Shown in pieces: positions 35,543 to 59,045 of a stretch of 64,000 nt of DNA (position 1 is its first letter; every line of letters starts with the position of its first letter). This stretch comes from Eubacterium sp. (GTDB lineage: Bacteria; Bacillota; Clostridia; Oscillospirales; Acutalibacteraceae). The stretch covers positions 1 to 64,000 of the forward strand of contig JAFUEH010000037.1 in the NCBI GenBank assembly GCA_017463985.1, written 5' to 3'. The notes beneath the pieces are model-generated. The model worked only from the letters and a program-made list of their open reading frames with translations. It was not told the origin of the DNA and made no database searches. The position numbers were made by a program, and so were the translations under genes.

Positions 35543-35565
35543 GGTAATAGATAACCAAAAGGCAA

Positions 35566-35785
35566 TGAACAGGAGAAGTAGCCGCGTCTGCTTTTTGCAG
35601 AGAGTAAGCCGCTTGCTGAAAGGCTTATATTAAGCGACCGGTGAAATGCGCCTGTGAGCTTCCTGTAGGAAATGACAGGACGGTCGGCGCCGTTATCCGC
35701 CTGATCTATTGCGTGTAGATGAGTATAAAACGGAGTGGAACCGCAGGTAACTGCCTCTGTCGAGCAATCGGCAGAGGCTTTTTTG
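35566..35785 (+). promoter_or_regulatory. tRNA-Cys T-box riboswitch
   Basis: The leader has the Stem I landmarks AGAGAGTAAG and GCTGAAAGGC, a specifier region GGTGAAATGCGCC, and the T-box sequence GTGGAACCGC (35735-35744). The specifier codon is read as TGC (35647-35649), a cysteine codon. The T-box bulge TGGA should pair with a tRNA ending UCCA, i.e. discriminator U, which is the tRNA-Cys base. A terminator stem (35753-35759 with 35772-35778, then six T) competes with the antiterminator. Uncharged tRNA-Cys should turn on cysE-cysS. Confidence 0.92.
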
Positions 35786-51634: not shown

Positions 51635-52327
51635 TTAAACTTCCTCACAAATACCCAGTAAGATCACATAAGCAAAGGCCTGCTGATACGACGGCTGCTG
51701 CAGCCTTTCGTTTTCCGCACGGTTGCTCATAAAGCCGCATTCAATCATCACAGACGGTACCGACGCGCGATAAAGGATATAATAGCTATCGTCCGACGCC
51801 TTGTTTTCACGTTCATTATCCGGTTGCAAAAACAGCTTTGTCTGTGAAAGAATACTGTCCGCCAGCTGCTTACTTTCCGCTGTATTGGCGGAATACCAGA
51901 TCTGCGTCCCCCACTCTTTTTCCTGTTCAAAATGGTTTTGGTGAATGGAGATCAGCACCGAGGACGGGATACTGTTCACAAAATCCAGCCGGTTATAAAG
52001 ATCGGAACGCGAACGGTCGCTGTCAGGCGGATAATATTCATAATCGCCGTCACGGATCAGCACAGCATGAATTCCGCACACATTCAGAAAGTCGTACAGA
52101 TCCTTCGCAATGGCCAGGTTGATGTCCTTTTCGGGCGTACCGTCTATACCGACCGTTCCTGCGTCACGGCCGCCGTGTCCGGCGTCGATCACGACGGTAT
52201 AACGGGAGCTTACCTGCCGTGCGCTGACCGGCTTTTCCGCCCTGACAAAGGCGTGCAGTCCCAAGGCAGCGGCCACCGTAAATAAAACAGCCGCCAAAAT
52301 ACAATACGTTCGCTTAATGTAAATCAT
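51635..52327 (-). CDS. cwlD: N-acetylmuramoyl-L-alanine amidase (CwlD-like)
   Basis: A 230-residue Amidase_3 enzyme with an N-terminal membrane anchor (residues 7-27). The zinc ligands are in VIDAGHGGRDAG (His51), the PEKDINLAIA glutamate and ISIHQNHF. The short form with no SPOR or SH3 domain is typical of CwlD, which removes side peptides for the muramic-delta-lactam of spore cortex. It is first in a minus-strand run with radA. Confidence 0.85.
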   Translation of the reverse strand: MIYIKRTYCILAAVLFTVAAALGLHAFVRAEKPVSARQVSSRYTVVIDAGHGGRDAGTVGIDGTPEKDINLAIAKDLYDFLNVCGIHAVLIRDGDYEYYPPDSDRSRSDLYNRLDFVNSIPSSVLISIHQNHFEQEKEWGTQIWYSANTAESKQLADSILSQTKLFLQPDNERENKASDDSYYILYRASVPSVMIECGFMSNRAENERLQQPSYQQAFAYVILLGICEEV

Positions 52328-52391
52328 ACTGAATTATATTATTAACCCTGCCAATATTATAACCTATCCTCAAAAAGTAATCAATATTAAG

Positions 52392-52420
52392 TTGATTTTA
52401 TTTCACGAAAGGGATATAAT
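52392..52420 (+). promoter_or_regulatory. Promoter of the hydroxyacid dehydrogenase
   Basis: TTGATT (52392-52397), 17-nt spacer, TATAAT (52415-52420), then GAGGTGACAGT before the ATG. Confidence 0.65.
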
Positions 52421-52449
52421 CAGTACTATAACAATGCAGAGGTGACAGT

Positions 52450-53403
52450 ATGAAAATCGTAAACCTAGAGGGCTATACAACGAACCCGGGCGATCTTTCC
52501 TGGGAGCAGTTCAAGCAATACGGCGAGCTGGTCGTGTATGACCGCACCAAGCCGGAGGAGATCGTAGAGCGCGCCAAGGACGCCGACGTGCTTTTTATCA
52601 ATAAAAGCATCATTACTGCGGAGCTGCTGGATCAGATGCCGAAGCTGAAATATGTCGGCTTGCAGTCTACCGGCTTTAATGTGATCGACTGTGCGGCGGC
52701 ACGGGAGCGCGGTATCACCGTTTCTAACATTCCTGCCTATTCCACGAATGCGGTAGCCCAGCTGGTGTTTGCGTTTATTTTGCAGATCACTAACAAGGTA
52801 ACGCTGCACTCCGATGCCGTCCATCAAGGTGAATGGACGACCTGTCACGACTTCTGTTTCTGGAAAGCGCCGCTGACGGAGCTGGACGGCAAGGTACTTG
52901 GTATCATCGGCTTTGGCTCGATCGGGCAGCGCGTCAGCCGTATTGCGCAGGCCTTTGGCATGAAGGTGCTGGTTTCGACGCCGCATCCGCAGCCGGAACG
53001 CTATCCGGATGTTGACTTTGTGCCGCTGGACGAGCTGTTTCGTATGAGTGACGTCATCACCTGTCACTGTCCGCTGACGCCGCAGACAGAAAATCTGATC
53101 AACGCTGACGCCATCGCGCTGATGAAGCCGAGCGCGATTTTGATCAACACCTCGCGCGGTCCTGTCGTCGATGATTTGGCGCTTGCGGAGGCGCTGAACG
53201 AAGGAAGGCTGCAGGCAGCCGGCGTGGATGTTTTGCGCACGGAACCGCCGCAGGCAAGCAATCCCCTGCTCCACGCGAAAAACTGCTTTATTACGCCGCA
53301 CATCGCCTGGGCCGGCTATGAAACGCGCGCCCGTTTGCAGCGCATTTTAGAGGAAAATTTAAAAGCCTTCCTCGCCGGTCATCCGCAAAACGTTGTTAAT
53401 TAG
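52450..53403 (+). CDS. D-2-hydroxyacid dehydrogenase
   Basis: A 317-residue NAD-dependent dehydrogenase. The nucleotide fold is GIIGFGSIGQRVSRIAQAFG. The catalytic set is Arg in INTSRGPVVDD, Glu in the TEPP segment and His in PHIAWAG. The sequence looks like glycerate/hydroxypyruvate dehydrogenases, but lactate or other acids cannot be excluded. It stands alone on the plus strand, against the local minus bias, with its own promoter and terminator. Confidence 0.85.
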   Translation: MKIVNLEGYTTNPGDLSWEQFKQYGELVVYDRTKPEEIVERAKDADVLFINKSIITAELLDQMPKLKYVGLQSTGFNVIDCAAARERGITVSNIPAYSTNAVAQLVFAFILQITNKVTLHSDAVHQGEWTTCHDFCFWKAPLTELDGKVLGIIGFGSIGQRVSRIAQAFGMKVLVSTPHPQPERYPDVDFVPLDELFRMSDVITCHCPLTPQTENLINADAIALMKPSAILINTSRGPVVDDLALAEALNEGRLQAAGVDVLRTEPPQASNPLLHAKNCFITPHIAWAGYETRARLQRILEENLKAFLAGHPQNVVN

Positions 53404-53430
53404 TATACAAAAGCAATGTGCTTGTATAAA

Positions 53431-53465
53431 AAAGCCATCCGGATGACGGGTGGCTTTCTCTTTTT
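53431..53465 (+). terminator. Terminator of the hydroxyacid dehydrogenase
   Basis: 10-bp stem 53431-53440 with 53448-53457 (one G-T pair), then TCTCTTTTTC. A second small inverted repeat (53404-53427) precedes it. Confidence 0.75.
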
Positions 53466-53468
53466 CGT

Positions 53469-54458
53469 TTATTTGTTATTCTTTTTTCTGATTGCGAACA
53501 CGATTCGCCACCAGATGGCGCCGACGATCGCATAAGTAAGCGTAAAGAAGATCAATCCGGCGATATCGTAGTTGTCCATCACGCCGTCGTCCGCAAAGGT
53601 CAGACCGAGCATGAGCAGCCAACCGGCGCACAGCACCGTGAATATGATAAAACAAATCTTGTTGATCAGTGCGCGCTTACGCTGCTTGGGCGGCTGACGG
53701 AACGGCGACTTGTAGGTCGTTTTCTTTCCGTAAACCTCCTTCATATAGCGGTACAGCGCTGCGCGCGCCCCCTGCTCCTCCGGCTTGTAGTAGGCAAAAT
53801 CGTACGCCTCATAGATCGCGTCGAACATTGCCTTGTCCGGCTCGCGCTCGCGCAAGAATTGCAGCAAATCCTCCATAAAGTATTTGTTCAGCAATAACGC
53901 TTTCACGGACGACGCTCGGAACATCGCCTGATAGTCCGCGGGCTTTGCCCATTTATAATAGTAATCATACAGCGCATGAATCACCGTATTCGGCCTTGCC
54001 GGCACCACCCGCACAGCGGGTTCCTCCGACGTCTGCGCTGCTGTTTTCGGCGTGCTTTCCTGTGGGTTCAGGATCGCTTGAATGACCTGCAGCATACGGT
54101 CAAACGCTCTCTCACGGTTTTCATACGCCGGATAGCGCTGAATGTTGGAAAGGTAAAAGTTAAATTCATCCTTCAGCGCGCAGTTTTCCAGCATAAACGG
54201 CAGTATGGTTTTGCCGTGATTGATCGCCGTGTCCAGCTCCTTCGGCACCCACTGCGACGTTTGTGTGGCAGCTGAGAGCACGAGCACAAATACTTTGCAG
54301 GCGCGGATCGCTGCCGGTATCTCCACCGCATAGCTGGAGCCGCCGGGAATGCTGTCCGGCGCCATCCAACAGGAAATGCCGTTCTCCTCGAGCTGCTGCT
54401 TGACCCAAGACGCCGCCTCGATTTCCTCTGATTTATAGCTGATAAAAATATCCTTCAT
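53469..54458 (-). CDS. TIR-domain protein with two C-terminal transmembrane helices
   Basis: A 329-residue protein. Residues 1-130 are a bacterial TIR domain (KDIFISYKSEE, box-2-like PDSIPGG, and WVPKEL with Glu74 at the NADase position of SARM1). Residues 160-250 are a helical segment of unknown type. Two transmembrane helices follow at about 266-287 and 298-322. Residues 36-66 and 68-81 are identical to the TIR of the upstream TIR-LRR protein, so the two arose by recent duplication or are kept alike by gene conversion. ATGA overlap with the upstream gene couples translation. NAD cleavage is inferred, not shown. Confidence 0.85.
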   Translation of the reverse strand: MKDIFISYKSEEIEAASWVKQQLEENGISCWMAPDSIPGGSSYAVEIPAAIRACKVFVLVLSAATQTSQWVPKELDTAINHGKTILPFMLENCALKDEFNFYLSNIQRYPAYENRERAFDRMLQVIQAILNPQESTPKTAAQTSEEPAVRVVPARPNTVIHALYDYYYKWAKPADYQAMFRASSVKALLLNKYFMEDLLQFLREREPDKAMFDAIYEAYDFAYYKPEEQGARAALYRYMKEVYGKKTTYKSPFRQPPKQRKRALINKICFIIFTVLCAGWLLMLGLTFADDGVMDNYDIAGLIFFTLTYAIVGAIWWRIVFAIRKKNNK

Positions 54459-56533
54459 CTTGTTTCTCCGTCACTATGGCTGCGTTCACTTATCCCTGTA
54501 ATGAGCACTTCTTCCAGCTGACCGCTTGCTGTCTCTAAATCATCAGACAGGACGGTTAAGCGATAGTCCAGTAAGGTCTCCATGGCTTTTTGCTGATCGA
54601 GCGGTATGCTGAAAAGATAAAGATTTACGGCCTTATTTGCAAAGGCGTCATAGTCAACTGCCTCATTGTAATCCGCAACAAGGCTTGAGAAGTCGTAGTC
54701 ACTCAGGAATGAATAATCGATCTGATTACCGTAGATCGCTAGCGTACTGTAAGTCACCTGCGGCAGCGTAAGGTCGGTGATAGCATTATTGCTCAGATCA
54801 AGATAGATTGAATCCGTCGTATTTAAGATGTCAAACAGTGCGTCCGTTTCGCTCAGGCTGTTATCCGAAAGAATCAGCGTACTTAATGCATGACAGGTTT
54901 GCAGCGGTGACAGATCGTCGATCAGATTACCGCTGGCGGATAAAGTCGTTAAACCGATTATGTTTTCTATGCCGTCCAAAGAGTTCAAGCGGTTGTTGTT
55001 AACTGACAGACTCTCCAGCAATGTACAATCCGCAAGCTCCTCCAGACTCTGCAGACCGTTACCGTCCACCGACAAATCAAACAGCGTTCCGGCCGATTTT
55101 GCCAGCTCTGAAAACTTGGTCAGCTGATTTTGGTTGAGCGATACCGTTCTCAGCAGCGTGCAATTGGCAATCCCGTTAAGCGAGCTGATTGCATTACCGT
55201 CCGCATACAGCTCTGTCAGCTCGAGCGCGTATTCCAACCCTTCGAGCGAAGTCAACGCGTTTTGGCTGACGTTGAGCACTGACAGTATCGGTAAGCCGGA
55301 CAGTGGTGCCAGCGAAGTGATATTGTTCTCTGAAAGGTCTAAGGTTTGGAGCGACGACAAGCCGGCAAGGAAGTTAATATCCGTCAGATTATCACCATGC
55401 AGCGACAGCGTACCGAGCGACGTCGCATCGCTCAAAAACGAAAAGTCCGTAATCGCCGTATTGTCCAGCTTGAGCGTATAGATATGATCGAGCAGCGGCA
55501 GCATAAACGTCGGATCGCTGATCGGATTACCGCTGAGATCCAATTCCCCTATCTCGGAAAAGCTCAAGTTGACGTTGCTCAGCCATTCGTCCGTTACGCC
55601 GCAGTTCGTGACCGTTACGCTGTCGATCTGCAGCTGCATCAGTGATGTAAATACCGTCGCACTTAGCTGACAGTCATTGAGGCTCACGCTGCTCAGATGC
55701 TTCATTTTGCCAAGTGTGTTAACGTCCTTCTCTGTCAGCTCGACCTCCTCTAGCGCCACCCAGTGGCTGGAACGCGAGCGTTTCTCGCCTGCGATCGTAA
55801 CGCGGTCGGCAGCATTAACGATCAAAGGGATCGCAATCACCAGCACCAGCAAGCCGATGATCACACCTAGCACAATGCGTAAGCCGCGCTTGCGCTTCTT
55901 TTTCTTATTAAGCGACGCATTGTCTGCCGCCGTGTTTTCATCCTTCTTATTTCTTTTCTCTTTTTTTACCTTTTTCTTCTTGGTCGGCTGCGATCTTTCT
56001 TCTGCCGGTTCTTCTTCGATCGGCTGCGGCTCTTCCTTTGCCGAATACGGATCATCCGATGCCGTGAACGACAGCACGGAGGTTGTCGACGCATCAGCCT
56101 TGGCGGACGGCTCGGTCGCGCGCGGAGTAATCACAACCGGATGTATGAACGCGCTGATGTCCTTTACCATCGCGGCTAACGCCTCTTCCTTGTCCTCATA
56201 CGCCGGATAGCGCTGGATATTGGAGAGGTAAAAGCCGAATTCGTCCTTCAGCTCACAGTTTTCGAGCACAAAGGGCATGATCTTTTTCTTATGATTGATC
56301 GCCGTGTCCAGCTCCTTCGGCACCCACTGTGATTCCTGCGTTGCCGCTGAGAGCACGAGCACAAATACCTTGCAGGCACGGATCGCCGCCGGTATCTCCA
56401 CCGCATAGCTGGAGCCGCCGGGAATGCTGCCCGGTGCCATCCAGCAGGAGAAGCCCTTAGCCTCCAGCTGATGCTTGACCCATTTCGCTTCCGCGATTTC
56501 TTCTGATTTATAGCTGATAAAAATATCCTTCAT
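54455..56533 (-). CDS. TIR-transmembrane-LRR receptor-like protein
   Basis: A 692-residue protein. Residues 1-130 are a TIR domain with KDIFISYKSEE and WVPKEL (Glu74). A Pro/Glu/Ser linker and a strongly basic stretch (about 184-217) lead to one transmembrane helix (219-241). Residues about 255-640 are some fifteen internalin-like 22-residue leucine-rich repeats, such as LQTLDLSENNITSLAPLSGL. The basic patch before the helix predicts TIR inside and LRRs outside. This is the part list of a Toll-like receptor in reverse order. A role as a surface sensor that triggers NAD cleavage is inference. The 4-bp overlaps join it to the VanZ and second TIR genes. Confidence 0.88.
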   Translation of the reverse strand: MKDIFISYKSEEIAEAKWVKHQLEAKGFSCWMAPGSIPGGSSYAVEIPAAIRACKVFVLVLSAATQESQWVPKELDTAINHKKKIMPFVLENCELKDEFGFYLSNIQRYPAYEDKEEALAAMVKDISAFIHPVVITPRATEPSAKADASTTSVLSFTASDDPYSAKEEPQPIEEEPAEERSQPTKKKKVKKEKRNKKDENTAADNASLNKKKKRKRGLRIVLGVIIGLLVLVIAIPLIVNAADRVTIAGEKRSRSSHWVALEEVELTEKDVNTLGKMKHLSSVSLNDCQLSATVFTSLMQLQIDSVTVTNCGVTDEWLSNVNLSFSEIGELDLSGNPISDPTFMLPLLDHIYTLKLDNTAITDFSFLSDATSLGTLSLHGDNLTDINFLAGLSSLQTLDLSENNITSLAPLSGLPILSVLNVSQNALTSLEGLEYALELTELYADGNAISSLNGIANCTLLRTVSLNQNQLTKFSELAKSAGTLFDLSVDGNGLQSLEELADCTLLESLSVNNNRLNSLDGIENIIGLTTLSASGNLIDDLSPLQTCHALSTLILSDNSLSETDALFDILNTTDSIYLDLSNNAITDLTLPQVTYSTLAIYGNQIDYSFLSDYDFSSLVADYNEAVDYDAFANKAVNLYLFSIPLDQQKAMETLLDYRLTVLSDDLETASGQLEEVLITGISERSHSDGETR

Positions 56534-57141
56534 CTTGTTTCTCCGTTGTCCCCTGGTGCAGGCTTCTTAGCCTGTCTCTTCTTCATTATAACACGAATGA
56601 CCCGGTAAAGTAAATAGCCTAATAATACGCCAAAAGTATTTAACATGACGTCGTTGAGGTCGGTTACCCTGTCAAAGAAAAGCTGAGAGGACTCAATGAA
56701 CACCGACAGCAGACAGCCAAACAGCACCGTCAGCTTACCGTACCGACGGAACAACACTGGAAACAGTACGCCGTAAGGGATAAACAGCAGGACGTTGCCG
56801 CCGATATTCCGCACGACCTCCGACAGCTGACCGAGCGCCAGCATCCACTGTATCCATCCGATCGGGAAACCGATATATATGACAGTGTTCTCACGGTTCG
56901 GCAAGCGGTAAGGATTAACGGAAAAATCGAGGTGTAAAATGCTGTCCGGCAGCACCGTCTGTGACAGCACCGCCGCGAGATATACGAAGAAAAGCACGCA
57001 CAGCACTTCCCTTTTCCAGTCAAAGCGCCGCGTCTTGCGGTATACAATGAAGCGTGAAAGCAGGATAAACGGGAGCGCAATAAGACAGGGCAAGCCCATT
57101 GCCCTGAGATAACCGCCGATCATGCGCATCACTTCGCCCAT
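56530..57141 (-). CDS. VanZ-family membrane protein
   Basis: A 203-residue protein with four to five predicted transmembrane helices. VLSQTVLPDS, GGNVLLFIPYGVLFP and ESSQLFFDRVTDLNDVMLNTFGVLLGYLLY match the VanZ fold. VanZ of Enterococcus gives low-level teicoplanin resistance by an unknown route; the family is broad. Its stop overlaps the TIR-LRR start (ATGA). The last residues (NGETR) and the ribosome site match those before the second TIR gene. ATG 57141 is preferred; GTG 57150 and ATG 57129 are alternatives. Confidence 0.8.
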   Translation of the reverse strand: MGEVMRMIGGYLRAMGLPCLIALPFILLSRFIVYRKTRRFDWKREVLCVLFFVYLAAVLSQTVLPDSILHLDFSVNPYRLPNRENTVIYIGFPIGWIQWMLALGQLSEVVRNIGGNVLLFIPYGVLFPVLFRRYGKLTVLFGCLLSVFIESSQLFFDRVTDLNDVMLNTFGVLLGYLLYRVIRVIMKKRQAKKPAPGDNGETR

Positions 57142-57183
57142 CCGTCTCACCTGCCATTTTGAGCGATCCGCCCTTAATGAAGA

Positions 57184-57210
57184 AAAAGCAGGTTACATGA
57201 ACCTGCTTTT
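57184..57210. terminator. Bidirectional terminator after tRNA-Leu(CAA)
   Basis: 11-bp perfect stem 57184-57194 with 57200-57210, loop ACATG, flanked by A and T runs. Confidence 0.8.
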
Positions 57211-57297
57211 TGGTGCCGGCGGCGGGGGTCGAACCCGCACCCTGTTGCCAGGACCGGATTTTGAGTCCGGCACGTCTGCCAATTCCATCACGCCGGC
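57211..57297 (-). tRNA. tRNA-Leu (CAA anticodon)
   Basis: An 87-nt class II tRNA on the minus strand with acceptor GCCGGCG/CGCCGGC, discriminator A and encoded CCA. The anticodon loop reads CTCAAAA, giving CAA for UUG codons. It has a long variable arm and T-arm GGTTCGACCCC. Confidence 0.92.
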
Positions 57298-57362
57298 AAA
57301 GCACCTTACTTAGTATATTGATTTTTTGTCCGTTTGTCAATACAATTGGCGCAAAATTTTAC

Positions 57363-57391
57363 TTGACAAGCACTGAAAAATAGGATATGAT
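57363..57391 (+). promoter_or_regulatory. Promoter of tRNA-Leu(TAA)
   Basis: TTGACA (57363-57368), 17-nt spacer, TATGAT (57386-57391), 12 nt before the tRNA. Confidence 0.8.
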
Positions 57392-57403
57392 AATTACCGA
57401 TGT

Positions 57404-57490
57404 GCTGGTGTGGCGAAATAGGCAGACGCAAGGGACTTAAAATCCCTCGGTAGTAATACCGTACCGGTTCAAGTCCGGTCACCAGCACCA
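57404..57490 (+). tRNA. tRNA-Leu (TAA anticodon)
   Basis: An 87-nt class II tRNA with acceptor GCTGGTG/CACCAGC, discriminator A and encoded CCA. The anticodon loop CTTAAAA gives TAA for UUA codons. It has a long variable arm and T-arm GGTTCAAGTCC. Confidence 0.93.
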
Positions 57491-57491
57491 T

Positions 57492-57525
57492 GCCGTTGCG
57501 ATAATTTGTTCGTGACGGCTTTTTA
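57492..57525 (+). terminator. Terminator after tRNA-Leu(TAA)
   Basis: GCCGT and ACGGC arms around a long loop, followed by TTTTTATTT. Confidence 0.6.
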
Positions 57526-57567
57526 TTTATGTTATTTTCTTATAACGAGGATTGAGCGAATACAGCC

Positions 57568-57622
57568 TTGAAAACGTTGGGCTAATGCGGTATAATAGGC
57601 TTAACAGTTAGCGAACGCTAAC
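57568..57622 (+). promoter_or_regulatory. Promoter and operator of the methyltransferase gene
   Basis: TTGAAA (57568-57573), 17-nt spacer, TATAAT (57591-57596). Ten bases later is the perfect inverted repeat GTTAGCG-AA-CGCTAAC (57607-57622), placed like a repressor operator. Confidence 0.55.
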
Positions 57623-57690
57623 AAGCCGTTCACCCGTGCCGTGACCGGTAAGAAGCACTTGTTTTACATCATTAAAAGGAAGGAAGCGCC

Positions 57691-58383
57691 ATGAGCACCA
57701 GAAAAGATGAGATCAGAAAAGCCTATCACACGCTCGGAAAGCAGGGCAATTTCTATGACGGGATGATCACCTGCTCTTCACCCTCCGGCAAAGCTGTCTG
57801 TAAGCTGGTATGGGATATGAACGAGGAGGAAAATGACCGGTATTTGGAATACGCCCTATCCGGTATTCCCGAGGATTTTTCGGGCAAGCTCCTGGAGGTG
57901 CCCGTCGGTACCGGTATCTTGACGATGCCGCTCTATCGCCTGCTGCCTAAGGCAGAGATCACCTGCCTTGACTACTCTGAGGACATGATGGCGCGCGCCG
58001 CAGCAAGGGCAACGGATATGGGTATTCAGAATGTATCGTTCCAGCAGGGAGACGTCGGCCGTCTGCCGTTTGCGGATAACACCTTTGATGTCGTGCTGTC
58101 ACTCAACGGCTTCCATGCGTTTCCGGACAAGGACGCTGCCTTTGCCGAGACCTGCCGCGTGCTGAAGCCGGGAGGCGTCTTTTGCGGCGCATTTTACATT
58201 CAGGGCGAGGTAAAGCGGACAGATCGCTTTATCCAAACGCTCTACACCAAGGCCGGCTATTTTACGCCGCCTTATGAAACGGCAAGCTCTTTAAAGAAAC
58301 GGCTCGAAAAGCTTTATGCCGAGGTCAACCTGCGCACCGTTAAGGCAGAAGGTACTTTTGTCTGCCGCAAGGCGAACGAATAA
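57691..58383 (+). CDS. Class I SAM-dependent methyltransferase
   Basis: A 230-residue methyltransferase of the UbiE/COQ5-like type. Motif I is LLEVPVGTGILTMPL, motif II CLDYSEDMM, then GDVGRLPFADNTFDVVLSLNGFHAF and CRVLKPGGVFCG. The N-terminal extension (KAYHTLGKQGNFYDGMITCSS) is distinctive. The methyl acceptor is unknown. AAGGAAGG precedes the ATG. Confidence 0.85.
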   Translation: MSTRKDEIRKAYHTLGKQGNFYDGMITCSSPSGKAVCKLVWDMNEEENDRYLEYALSGIPEDFSGKLLEVPVGTGILTMPLYRLLPKAEITCLDYSEDMMARAAARATDMGIQNVSFQQGDVGRLPFADNTFDVVLSLNGFHAFPDKDAAFAETCRVLKPGGVFCGAFYIQGEVKRTDRFIQTLYTKAGYFTPPYETASSLKKRLEKLYAEVNLRTVKAEGTFVCRKANE

Positions 58384-58405
58384 AGCATACCTGCTATACA
58401 AAATC

Positions 58406-58432
58406 AGCCCGACGTTAAGCCGGGCTTTTTTG
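58406..58432 (+). terminator. Terminator of the methyltransferase gene
   Basis: AGCCCG (58406-58411) pairs with CGGGCT (58421-58426), followed by a T-run. Confidence 0.75.
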
Positions 58433-58454
58433 ATGAAACGATCCTCTTTCTTTG

Positions 58455-59045
58455 TTATTCTTGCCCGAAGTGGGACTCGTACCATTCGAGGAACTTGAAT
58501 TTGACAGTGATGTCGCTGTCCTCTATGAACGCCTGCTCCTGCTTTGTGAGCACGCCGTCAAAGCCGTCTGCGCAGGCGGAAAGACACACCGACGGAAACA
58601 TCACGCACCACCAGTTATGCCCTTCCCCTTTGCCTAAGATAATTTTAAGGCAGCGGTACCGTCCGGCCGGCAGCGTATAATTTTCGTAATACCGCGTATC
58701 AAAATATTCCTTGCCGATCACGGCGCGCGCCGTATACGCCAGTCCATTGTCATCAAGGACTGCCTGCGCCGTATCCGTCAGCTCCTGCAGATGCGCTTTG
58801 GTGACAGCGACCGCTTCTGACAAGGAACGGCAGTCGGCATAGAGCGGCGCGGCCTGTAATAGCAGCGCGTCACGAACCATCAGCTTCACCTCCTGATCTT
58901 CTTCCCCGTCGCTGTTGGCTAAGATATGCAGCCGGAATACCTTGTCCGCAATGCGCTCCCCTGTTGCTACGAGCGGTGCGGCGGCACCGTAGAGCAGCAA
59001 GAGGCACAGCAGCACCGGTACAAATATCCTTACGGTTTTCTTCAT
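58455..59045 (-). CDS. spoIIR: Stage II sporulation protein R
   Basis: A 196-residue secreted protein with an N-terminal signal helix (IFVPVLLCLLLLYGAAAP). The core FRLHILANSDGEEDQEVKLMVRDALL is the SpoIIR signature. SpoIIR is made in the forespore and signals SpoIIGA to process pro-sigma-E in the mother cell. It follows ispE in the minus-strand run. Confidence 0.95.
   Translation of the reverse strand: MKKTVRIFVPVLLCLLLLYGAAAPLVATGERIADKVFRLHILANSDGEEDQEVKLMVRDALLLQAAPLYADCRSLSEAVAVTKAHLQELTDTAQAVLDDNGLAYTARAVIGKEYFDTRYYENYTLPAGRYRCLKIILGKGEGHNWWCVMFPSVCLSACADGFDGVLTKQEQAFIEDSDITVKFKFLEWYESHFGQE

Follow-up and report, generated by a model that had tools for sequence, protein, structure and literature searches.

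We found that the window, the whole 64,000-nucleotide stretch of Eubacterium sp. DNA analyzed here, carries a gene for a protein that almost certainly combines an N-terminal TIR domain, a single membrane helix and an ectodomain of leucine-rich repeats (LRRs), with the TIR domain very likely, by prediction, inside the cell and the LRRs outside. An alignment of 12 full-length Clostridia proteins preserves this order, and half of the genes for these receptors have nearby a gene encoding a channel-like membrane protein that carries a ryanodine receptor (RyR) domain, a linkage that hints at an outside-to-inside alarm pathway. To our knowledge, the bacterial TIR defense proteins known so far sense infection within the cell. 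If our explanation is true, a TIR receptor in the membrane whose outside sensor changes would amount to surface pattern recognition in bacteria, independent of animals, and the link to the channel-like protein, which we call RCK-RyR, would assign bacterial RyR domains a role in the host and open the cADPR/RyR channel question to testing in a simple system.

The features of the locus are collected in Table 1. A sequence-only reading of this DNA had described a 692-residue protein with an N-terminal TIR domain, a basic stretch, one membrane helix at residues 219 to 241 and about 15 internalin-like LRRs, and all of these were borne out, on the minus strand. The open reading frame and Pfam TIR_2 establish the TIR domain; its TIR_2 score of 77.8 bits (78.4 bits for a second TIR protein encoded downstream) lies far above its score against Pfam TIR PF01582 (20.1 bits, with a cut-off of 21.3; 23.2 bits for the second TIR). 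The linker is 25% K+R over residues 133 to 219, the helix is placed at residues 218 to 242 by model and hydropathy, and about 15 repeats were recovered by Pfam LRR_4, the model and fold matches. Both sequence and fold matches assign the repeats to the internalin LRR type and fold, while the internalin family models stayed below their cut-offs on the receptor (InlA, 62.8 versus 1600 bits; InlH, 78.4 versus 1050 bits). Because LRR chains took up the results of a fold search run with the model of the full receptor, the TIR domain was compared by sequence profile alone. None of the contrary outcomes that the earlier reading had named (a missing LRR or TIR fold in structure prediction, a cytoplasmic LRR half or a glutamate outside the active-site pocket) occurred, the place of the glutamate being judged from sequence alignment.

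Table 1. Features of the receptor locus, in window coordinates
Feature	Position	Strand	Basis or remark
VanZ-like gene	56530..57150	-	Pfam VanZ E 1e-21; overlaps receptor start by 4 bases
Promoter-like pattern before receptor	56614-56585		Consensus match only
TIR-TM-LRR receptor gene, 692 aa	54455..56533	-	ORF, Pfam, structure model, 12-row family alignment
TIR domain, residues 1-132	56138..56533	-	TIR_2 E 1.2e-21; alignment of 20 TIRs
W70-V-P-K-E74, predicted NADase motif	56312..56326	-	Invariance; alignment with AbTir, TIR-1
Disordered basic linker, residues 133-217	55883..56137	-	pLDDT <50; composition
Single membrane helix, residues 218-242	55808..55882	-	Model, hydropathy, flanking charge
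Juxtamembrane element, LRR ectodomain and C-terminal cap, residues 243-660	54554..55807	-	LRR_4, model, fold matches, kinase module
Second TIR gene, 329 aa	53469..54458	-	ORF, Pfam, alignments
300-nt direct repeat, copy 1	54082..54381	-	In TIR coding region; 82% identical to copy 2
300-nt direct repeat, copy 2	56157..56456	-	In TIR coding region
Terminator-like pattern after second TIR	53431-53457		Consensus match only

The earlier reading had also used the positive-inside rule to put the TIR domain in the cytoplasm and the LRRs outside, and as a prediction this holds. One hydrophobic segment stands out in the receptor, and hydropathy revealed no signal-peptide-like helix in its first 45 residues. 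Across the 12 receptors, the 15-residue flank of the helix contains 86 K+R in total on the TIR side, versus 27 on the LRR side, and the positive charge is larger on the TIR side in every one of the 12. The charge bias and the single helix, with no signal peptide, thus predict a TIR domain inside and an LRR ectodomain outside.

The glutamate of the WxxxE motif, which we take to be the catalytic residue of NADase TIRs, is Glu74 in WVPKEL, and its proposed equivalence to the SARM1-type NADase glutamate was upheld by sequence alignment, from which its position in the pocket was also judged. W70 and E74 are invariant in all 12 receptors and in all 20 TIRs of a wider set. A profile search of PDB sequences with the TIR domain returned 44 matches, SARM1 among them, and the motif lines up with the corresponding W and E in AbTir (7uwg, 8g83) and with Caenorhabditis elegans TIR-1 (8p2m), where it reads WVHKE; in this alignment the glutamate sits in the WxxxE of the expected helix, as in NADase TIR domains. 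From these residues we infer that the receptor TIR may cleave NAD+. Of the wider interpretation in the sequence-only reading, a surface sensor that cleaves NAD on binding a ligand, the layout, the predicted topology and the glutamate match stand, with NAD cleavage and a phage, peptide or cell-wall ligand as putative parts. The available part of a TIR survey (PMC7075850) likewise gives the WxxxE glutamate as the catalytic residue; it also reports that the frequency of the glutamate does not necessarily match reported activity and that the residue is frequent in the TLR1/2/6/10 subgroup as well, so the glutamate alone is no proof of NADase activity.

A search in Clostridia for proteins of the same order, suggested by the earlier reading, yielded the 12 aligned proteins. 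Full-length receptors were present in 9 of 300 genomes of the host's family, the host included (G000, G366, G082, G238, G226, G311, G094, G260 and G256), and within the genus a full-length relative was found in 1 of 79 other genomes (G051, 38% identity). The host is a gut-type Clostridia bacterium, and the named carriers are Clostridia metagenome-assembled genomes, three of them of goat or sheep gut origin. In these counts, loci L053, L054 and L004 were treated as duplicates of L024, L026 and L052, given their equal lengths and neighbors, and counted once; L035 of G256, with a divergent TIR, was counted among the nine genomes and left out of the 12-row alignment. A further match in G143 lies at a contig edge and covers query residues 4 to 316 only. 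Mean pairwise identity among the receptors is 63% for the TIR domain and 32% for the LRR part, the pattern expected if the output is conserved and the sensor changes.

Both halves of the protein recur in other combinations. At least 10 other loci (L039, L059, L060, L062 to L067 and L074) showed, in a crude scan, a TIR domain and one helix with no LRR pattern, and appear to represent the receptor plan with different ectodomains. The ectodomain, in turn, follows a Ser/Thr kinase domain and a helix in L032:163-3021 and L034:31-2496, where the juxtamembrane element and the DCPLDKQ cap are kept. An ectodomain profile matched these two proteins at 1.3e-101 and 5.6e-115, spanning both ends, versus 1e-42 and 1.9e-49 for two control secreted LRR proteins, in which both ends were missing. 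The presence of the same helix and ectodomain on two Ser/Thr kinases makes it a shared sensor module, a single outside sensor coupled to two kinds of output. These kinases, the overlapping second TIR gene and the RCK-RyR gene near half of the relatives go beyond what the sequence-only reading had noted.

The RCK-RyR gene lies within 4 kb of the receptor gene in 6 of the 12 aligned receptors. It encodes a predicted RCK-type (GsuK/TrkA-like) membrane channel protein with a C-terminal ryanodine-receptor domain; the RCK fold was recovered by fold matches, and the model has at least four helices before residue 147. In profile comparisons with solved RyR domains, the RyR part matched 6uag, a putative ryanodine receptor chain, at 1.4e-7 and human RyR3 chains at values down to 1.1e-5, with a two-repeat chimera match of 5.2e-16. 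Pfam RyR (PF02026) matched 6 of 10 rows at E values up to 1 (best, 4.3e-6), and the host's own copy scored 16.9 bits against a curated cut-off of 27.4. Residues H, W, H and D occur at the phage RyDEP ligand spacing in 8 of 23 RCK-RyR rows, including that of the host. According to the accessible portion of PMC13232231, these four residues hold TIR-made cADPR-type signals in the phage RyR domain, and phage RyR domains are able to cleave the signal, so that the RCK-RyR neighbor could instead be an off-switch.

RCK-RyR matches were present in 42 of the 300 family genomes, with an E value below 1e-50 in 23. The 42 include all nine receptor genomes and the 23 include eight of them, the match in G256 being weak (8.1e-17). 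Of 25 strong RCK-RyR places, nine have a TIR gene no more than about 8 kb away, versus 0.2 to 0.5 expected with kinship ignored, and three of the nine TIR neighbors are weak matches (2e-9 to 5e-11). The expectation derives from the density of Pfam TIR_2 (88 matches in 100 genomes) and a mean genome size estimated from the list; the neighbors were scored with a custom profile and the background with Pfam TIR_2, some flanks were shorter than 8 kb, and the RCK-RyR matches and TIR neighbors were tallied by hand. Because TIR-adjacent genes supplied most of the RCK-RyR profile (A3), we also give the counts without the four sampled genomes that contributed to it: a TIR then lies near 6 of 21 RCK-RyR places, and the count of receptor genomes becomes 4 of 5. 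The host's RCK-RyR gene is on a different contig (10.5 kb) that carries no TIR, and no effector gene adjoins the receptor in the window. The 16 strong RCK-RyR places with no TIR nearby imply that the protein also works without an adjacent TIR and has other uses. Related TIR genes frequently lack both an LRR part and an RCK-RyR neighbor, which counts against our explanation.

Examples of RCK-RyR genes are L119:7686-9554 and L053:2017-3837, and several are near a small stand-alone RyR-like frame of about 95 to 110 codons. In L056:2797-9000, an RCK-RyR gene is followed by three tandem TIR genes and then by one whose product has an HExxH-like metalloprotease motif (weak M6 match). In L061:15-7596, a gene for an FtsK/EssC-like ATPase (FtsK_SpoIIIE E 2.3e-20) precedes RCK-RyR and TIR genes, a possible link to type VII secretion loci. 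Neither a bacterial TIR-TM-LRR receptor nor an RCK-RyR effector acting with a TIR was found in literature titles and abstract beginnings, a set that covers few subscription papers, and the LRR, leucine-rich and transmembrane passages seen of PMC7075850 (12 of 15 places) and PMC13142454 name no such receptor.

Taken as a whole, the best explanation, which we hold tentatively and rate a little short of probable, is a surface receptor whose TIR cleaves NAD and generates an NAD-derived messenger with a defense-like outcome. The protein would be a single-pass plasma-membrane receptor whose outside LRR ectodomain binds a ligand or reports stress; TIR domains would then gather on the inner membrane face, and the assembled TIR would cleave NAD+. 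An NAD-derived product would probably be the messenger, since half of the aligned receptors adjoin an RCK-RyR gene, a protein type with cADPR-holding residues, and the host has one elsewhere; in relatives, the RCK-RyR protein would read it. The alarmed cell would leak ions, arrest or die, a defense-like result. The complete route from LRR receptor through a TIR-made cADPR-type messenger to gating of an RCK channel with a RyR domain is possible, if on balance doubtful. If true, it would parallel Toll-like receptors and the cADPR control of ryanodine receptors, alongside kinase receptors that share the ectodomain.

The chromosomal site that carries the TIR gene pair is variable, and the pair belongs to its cargo. 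This site, window positions 51635-59045, sits at a tRNA-Leu pair and is flanked by an amidase-like gene (CwlD, judged by eye) and SpoIIR; its content differs across the genus. The amidase and SpoIIR genes lie on one contig, in the same orientation and at most 12 kb apart, in 32 of 80 genus genomes, with gaps of about 1.4 to 11.3 kb (both counted by hand). Among 17 gaps compared, all hold a hydroxyacid dehydrogenase gene and tRNA-Leu (a pair in 16), the remaining cargo differs, and none holds a TIR. The genes adjacent to the receptor encode the second TIR, VanZ and a 2-hydroxyacid dehydrogenase (Pfam), and there is no jump in GC content at the TIR pair. We discarded the idea that VanZ belongs to the system: in the two gaps tested for it (L188 and L189, genomes G047 and G069), it adjoins the same tRNA-Leu pair with no TIR, and it is probably an older neighbor outside the system. 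Elsewhere in the window, positions 35556-35761 hold a T-box leader (Rfam RF00230, 97.9 bits).

A receptor of the same topology could serve purposes other than immunity, sensing peptides, wall state or neighboring cells and adjusting physiology as membrane kinases do. The two kinases with the same ectodomain speak for this, as do the lack of a full-length PADLOC match, a scan of viral contigs in which no TIR relative was found, and one relative (L004) downstream of a gene for a toxin-like LHH nuclease and a small gene. We nevertheless consider it unlikely, given the complete WxxxE motif, the position as variable-site cargo and the linkage with a RyR-domain protein. In L004:91-1433, the nuclease gene (Pfam LHH E 1.7e-19) and the small gene, by eye its immunity gene, directly precede the TIR-TM-LRR gene.

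The start of the second TIR gene overlaps the receptor stop by 4 bases (ATGA). Its TIR domain is 77 to 79% identical to that of the receptor (77% over 138 residues), with W70 to E74 identical, and its tail has two hydrophobic segments (residues 268 to 286 and 299 to 317), which suggest a membrane-anchored protein. The 13 bases ahead of both TIR start codons are also identical. Together with the TIR identity and the 300-nt repeat, this points to a local duplication in which the copied stretch starts within the end of the upstream gene. The 175-residue tail is 47% identical to that of a DnaJ-like membrane protein encoded elsewhere in the host genome (contig C6, L206:1498-2472), whose gene adjoins an Hsp70 gene and whose Pfam DnaJ score is just under the cut-off. 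The second TIR thus looks like a young chimera, a TIR copy grafted onto a membrane tail. This tail was found in the host and in no other of the 300 family genomes, and a role as conserved partner of the receptor was rejected on that ground. The same finding weighs against a scaffold role for the TIR, on the model of animal Toll-like receptors, in which it would recruit partners such as the second TIR without cleaving NAD+. A second membrane TIR whose surface is almost the same, encoded by an overlapping gene, is what such a scaffold might use, and the frequency of the glutamate in TLR1/2/6/10 (PMC7075850, as above) fits it too; the invariance of Glu and Trp in 20 of 20 TIRs does not, and we regard a pure scaffold as quite improbable.

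A PrsW-family membrane protease might instead trim the receptor, freeing the TIR to form active assemblies. PrsW genes adjoin 4 of the 12 receptor genes (L053, L054, L055 and L120; Pfam E 6e-25 to 4e-29), and, in the portion of PMC13142454 available, an amoeba TIR of bacterial origin is toxic and lytic after removal of a predicted helix, its authors speculating on proteolytic release. However, the other eight receptors, some on short contigs, have no PrsW nearby, and none of the host's four PrsW matches is on the window's contig or next to the receptor, leaving this a slim prospect. A cytoplasmic LRR half, which would make the protein an inner sensor tethered to the membrane, is highly improbable in view of the one strong helix and the charge pattern in all 12 receptors, even with 5 to 15 cysteines per ectodomain and a helix-less TIR-LRR_5 protein beside one relative (L121:5185-6834). 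That locus (L121:3355-10091) is a row of an RCK-RyR gene, the helix-less gene and a TIR-TM-LRR gene.

As a surface receptor, the protein shares with animal Toll-like receptors the predicted arrangement of LRRs outside, one helix and TIR inside. Its chain order, however, is reversed, with the TIR N-terminal and no signal peptide, and it has a bacterial TIR_2-type TIR and internalin-like LRRs, so that it looks like an independent assembly and not a member of the TLR family. PASTA-type Ser/Thr kinases (PknB/Stk1) have the same plan of inside enzyme, one helix and outside sensor; the window protein has a TIR instead of the kinase. The kinases of L032 and L034 match the PknB_PASTA kinase model in part, with the LRR ectodomain replacing PASTA, and have the layout of plant LRR receptor kinases in reversed order. 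With Listeria internalins the receptor shares LRR type and fold, whereas internalins are secreted or wall bound and have no TIR or inside domain. Thoeris pairs the TIR protein ThsB with the SIR2-SLOG effector ThsA. The WxxxE TIR is common to both systems, and the receptor's relatives adjoin a protein containing a kind of domain that can hold cADPR signals (Thoeris details partly from the available parts of PMC13232231 and PMC11204291); unlike Thoeris, the receptor is membrane bound with outside LRRs, and the candidate effector is RCK-RyR and not SIR2-SLOG. ThsB/Thoeris models matched only the TIR part and never at full length (PADLOC ThsB best, 2.1e-5; ThcB4, 24.9 bits versus a cut-off of 220), no ThsA-type effector gene adjoins the receptor, and a STALD search of the rest of the genome gave 0 matches with a control that was also silent. 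Phage RyDEP and the animal RyR R12 domain have the same domain and four ligand residues as the RCK-RyR neighbor, in which, unlike in phage RyDEP, the RyR domain is fused to a bacterial RCK channel-like membrane protein.
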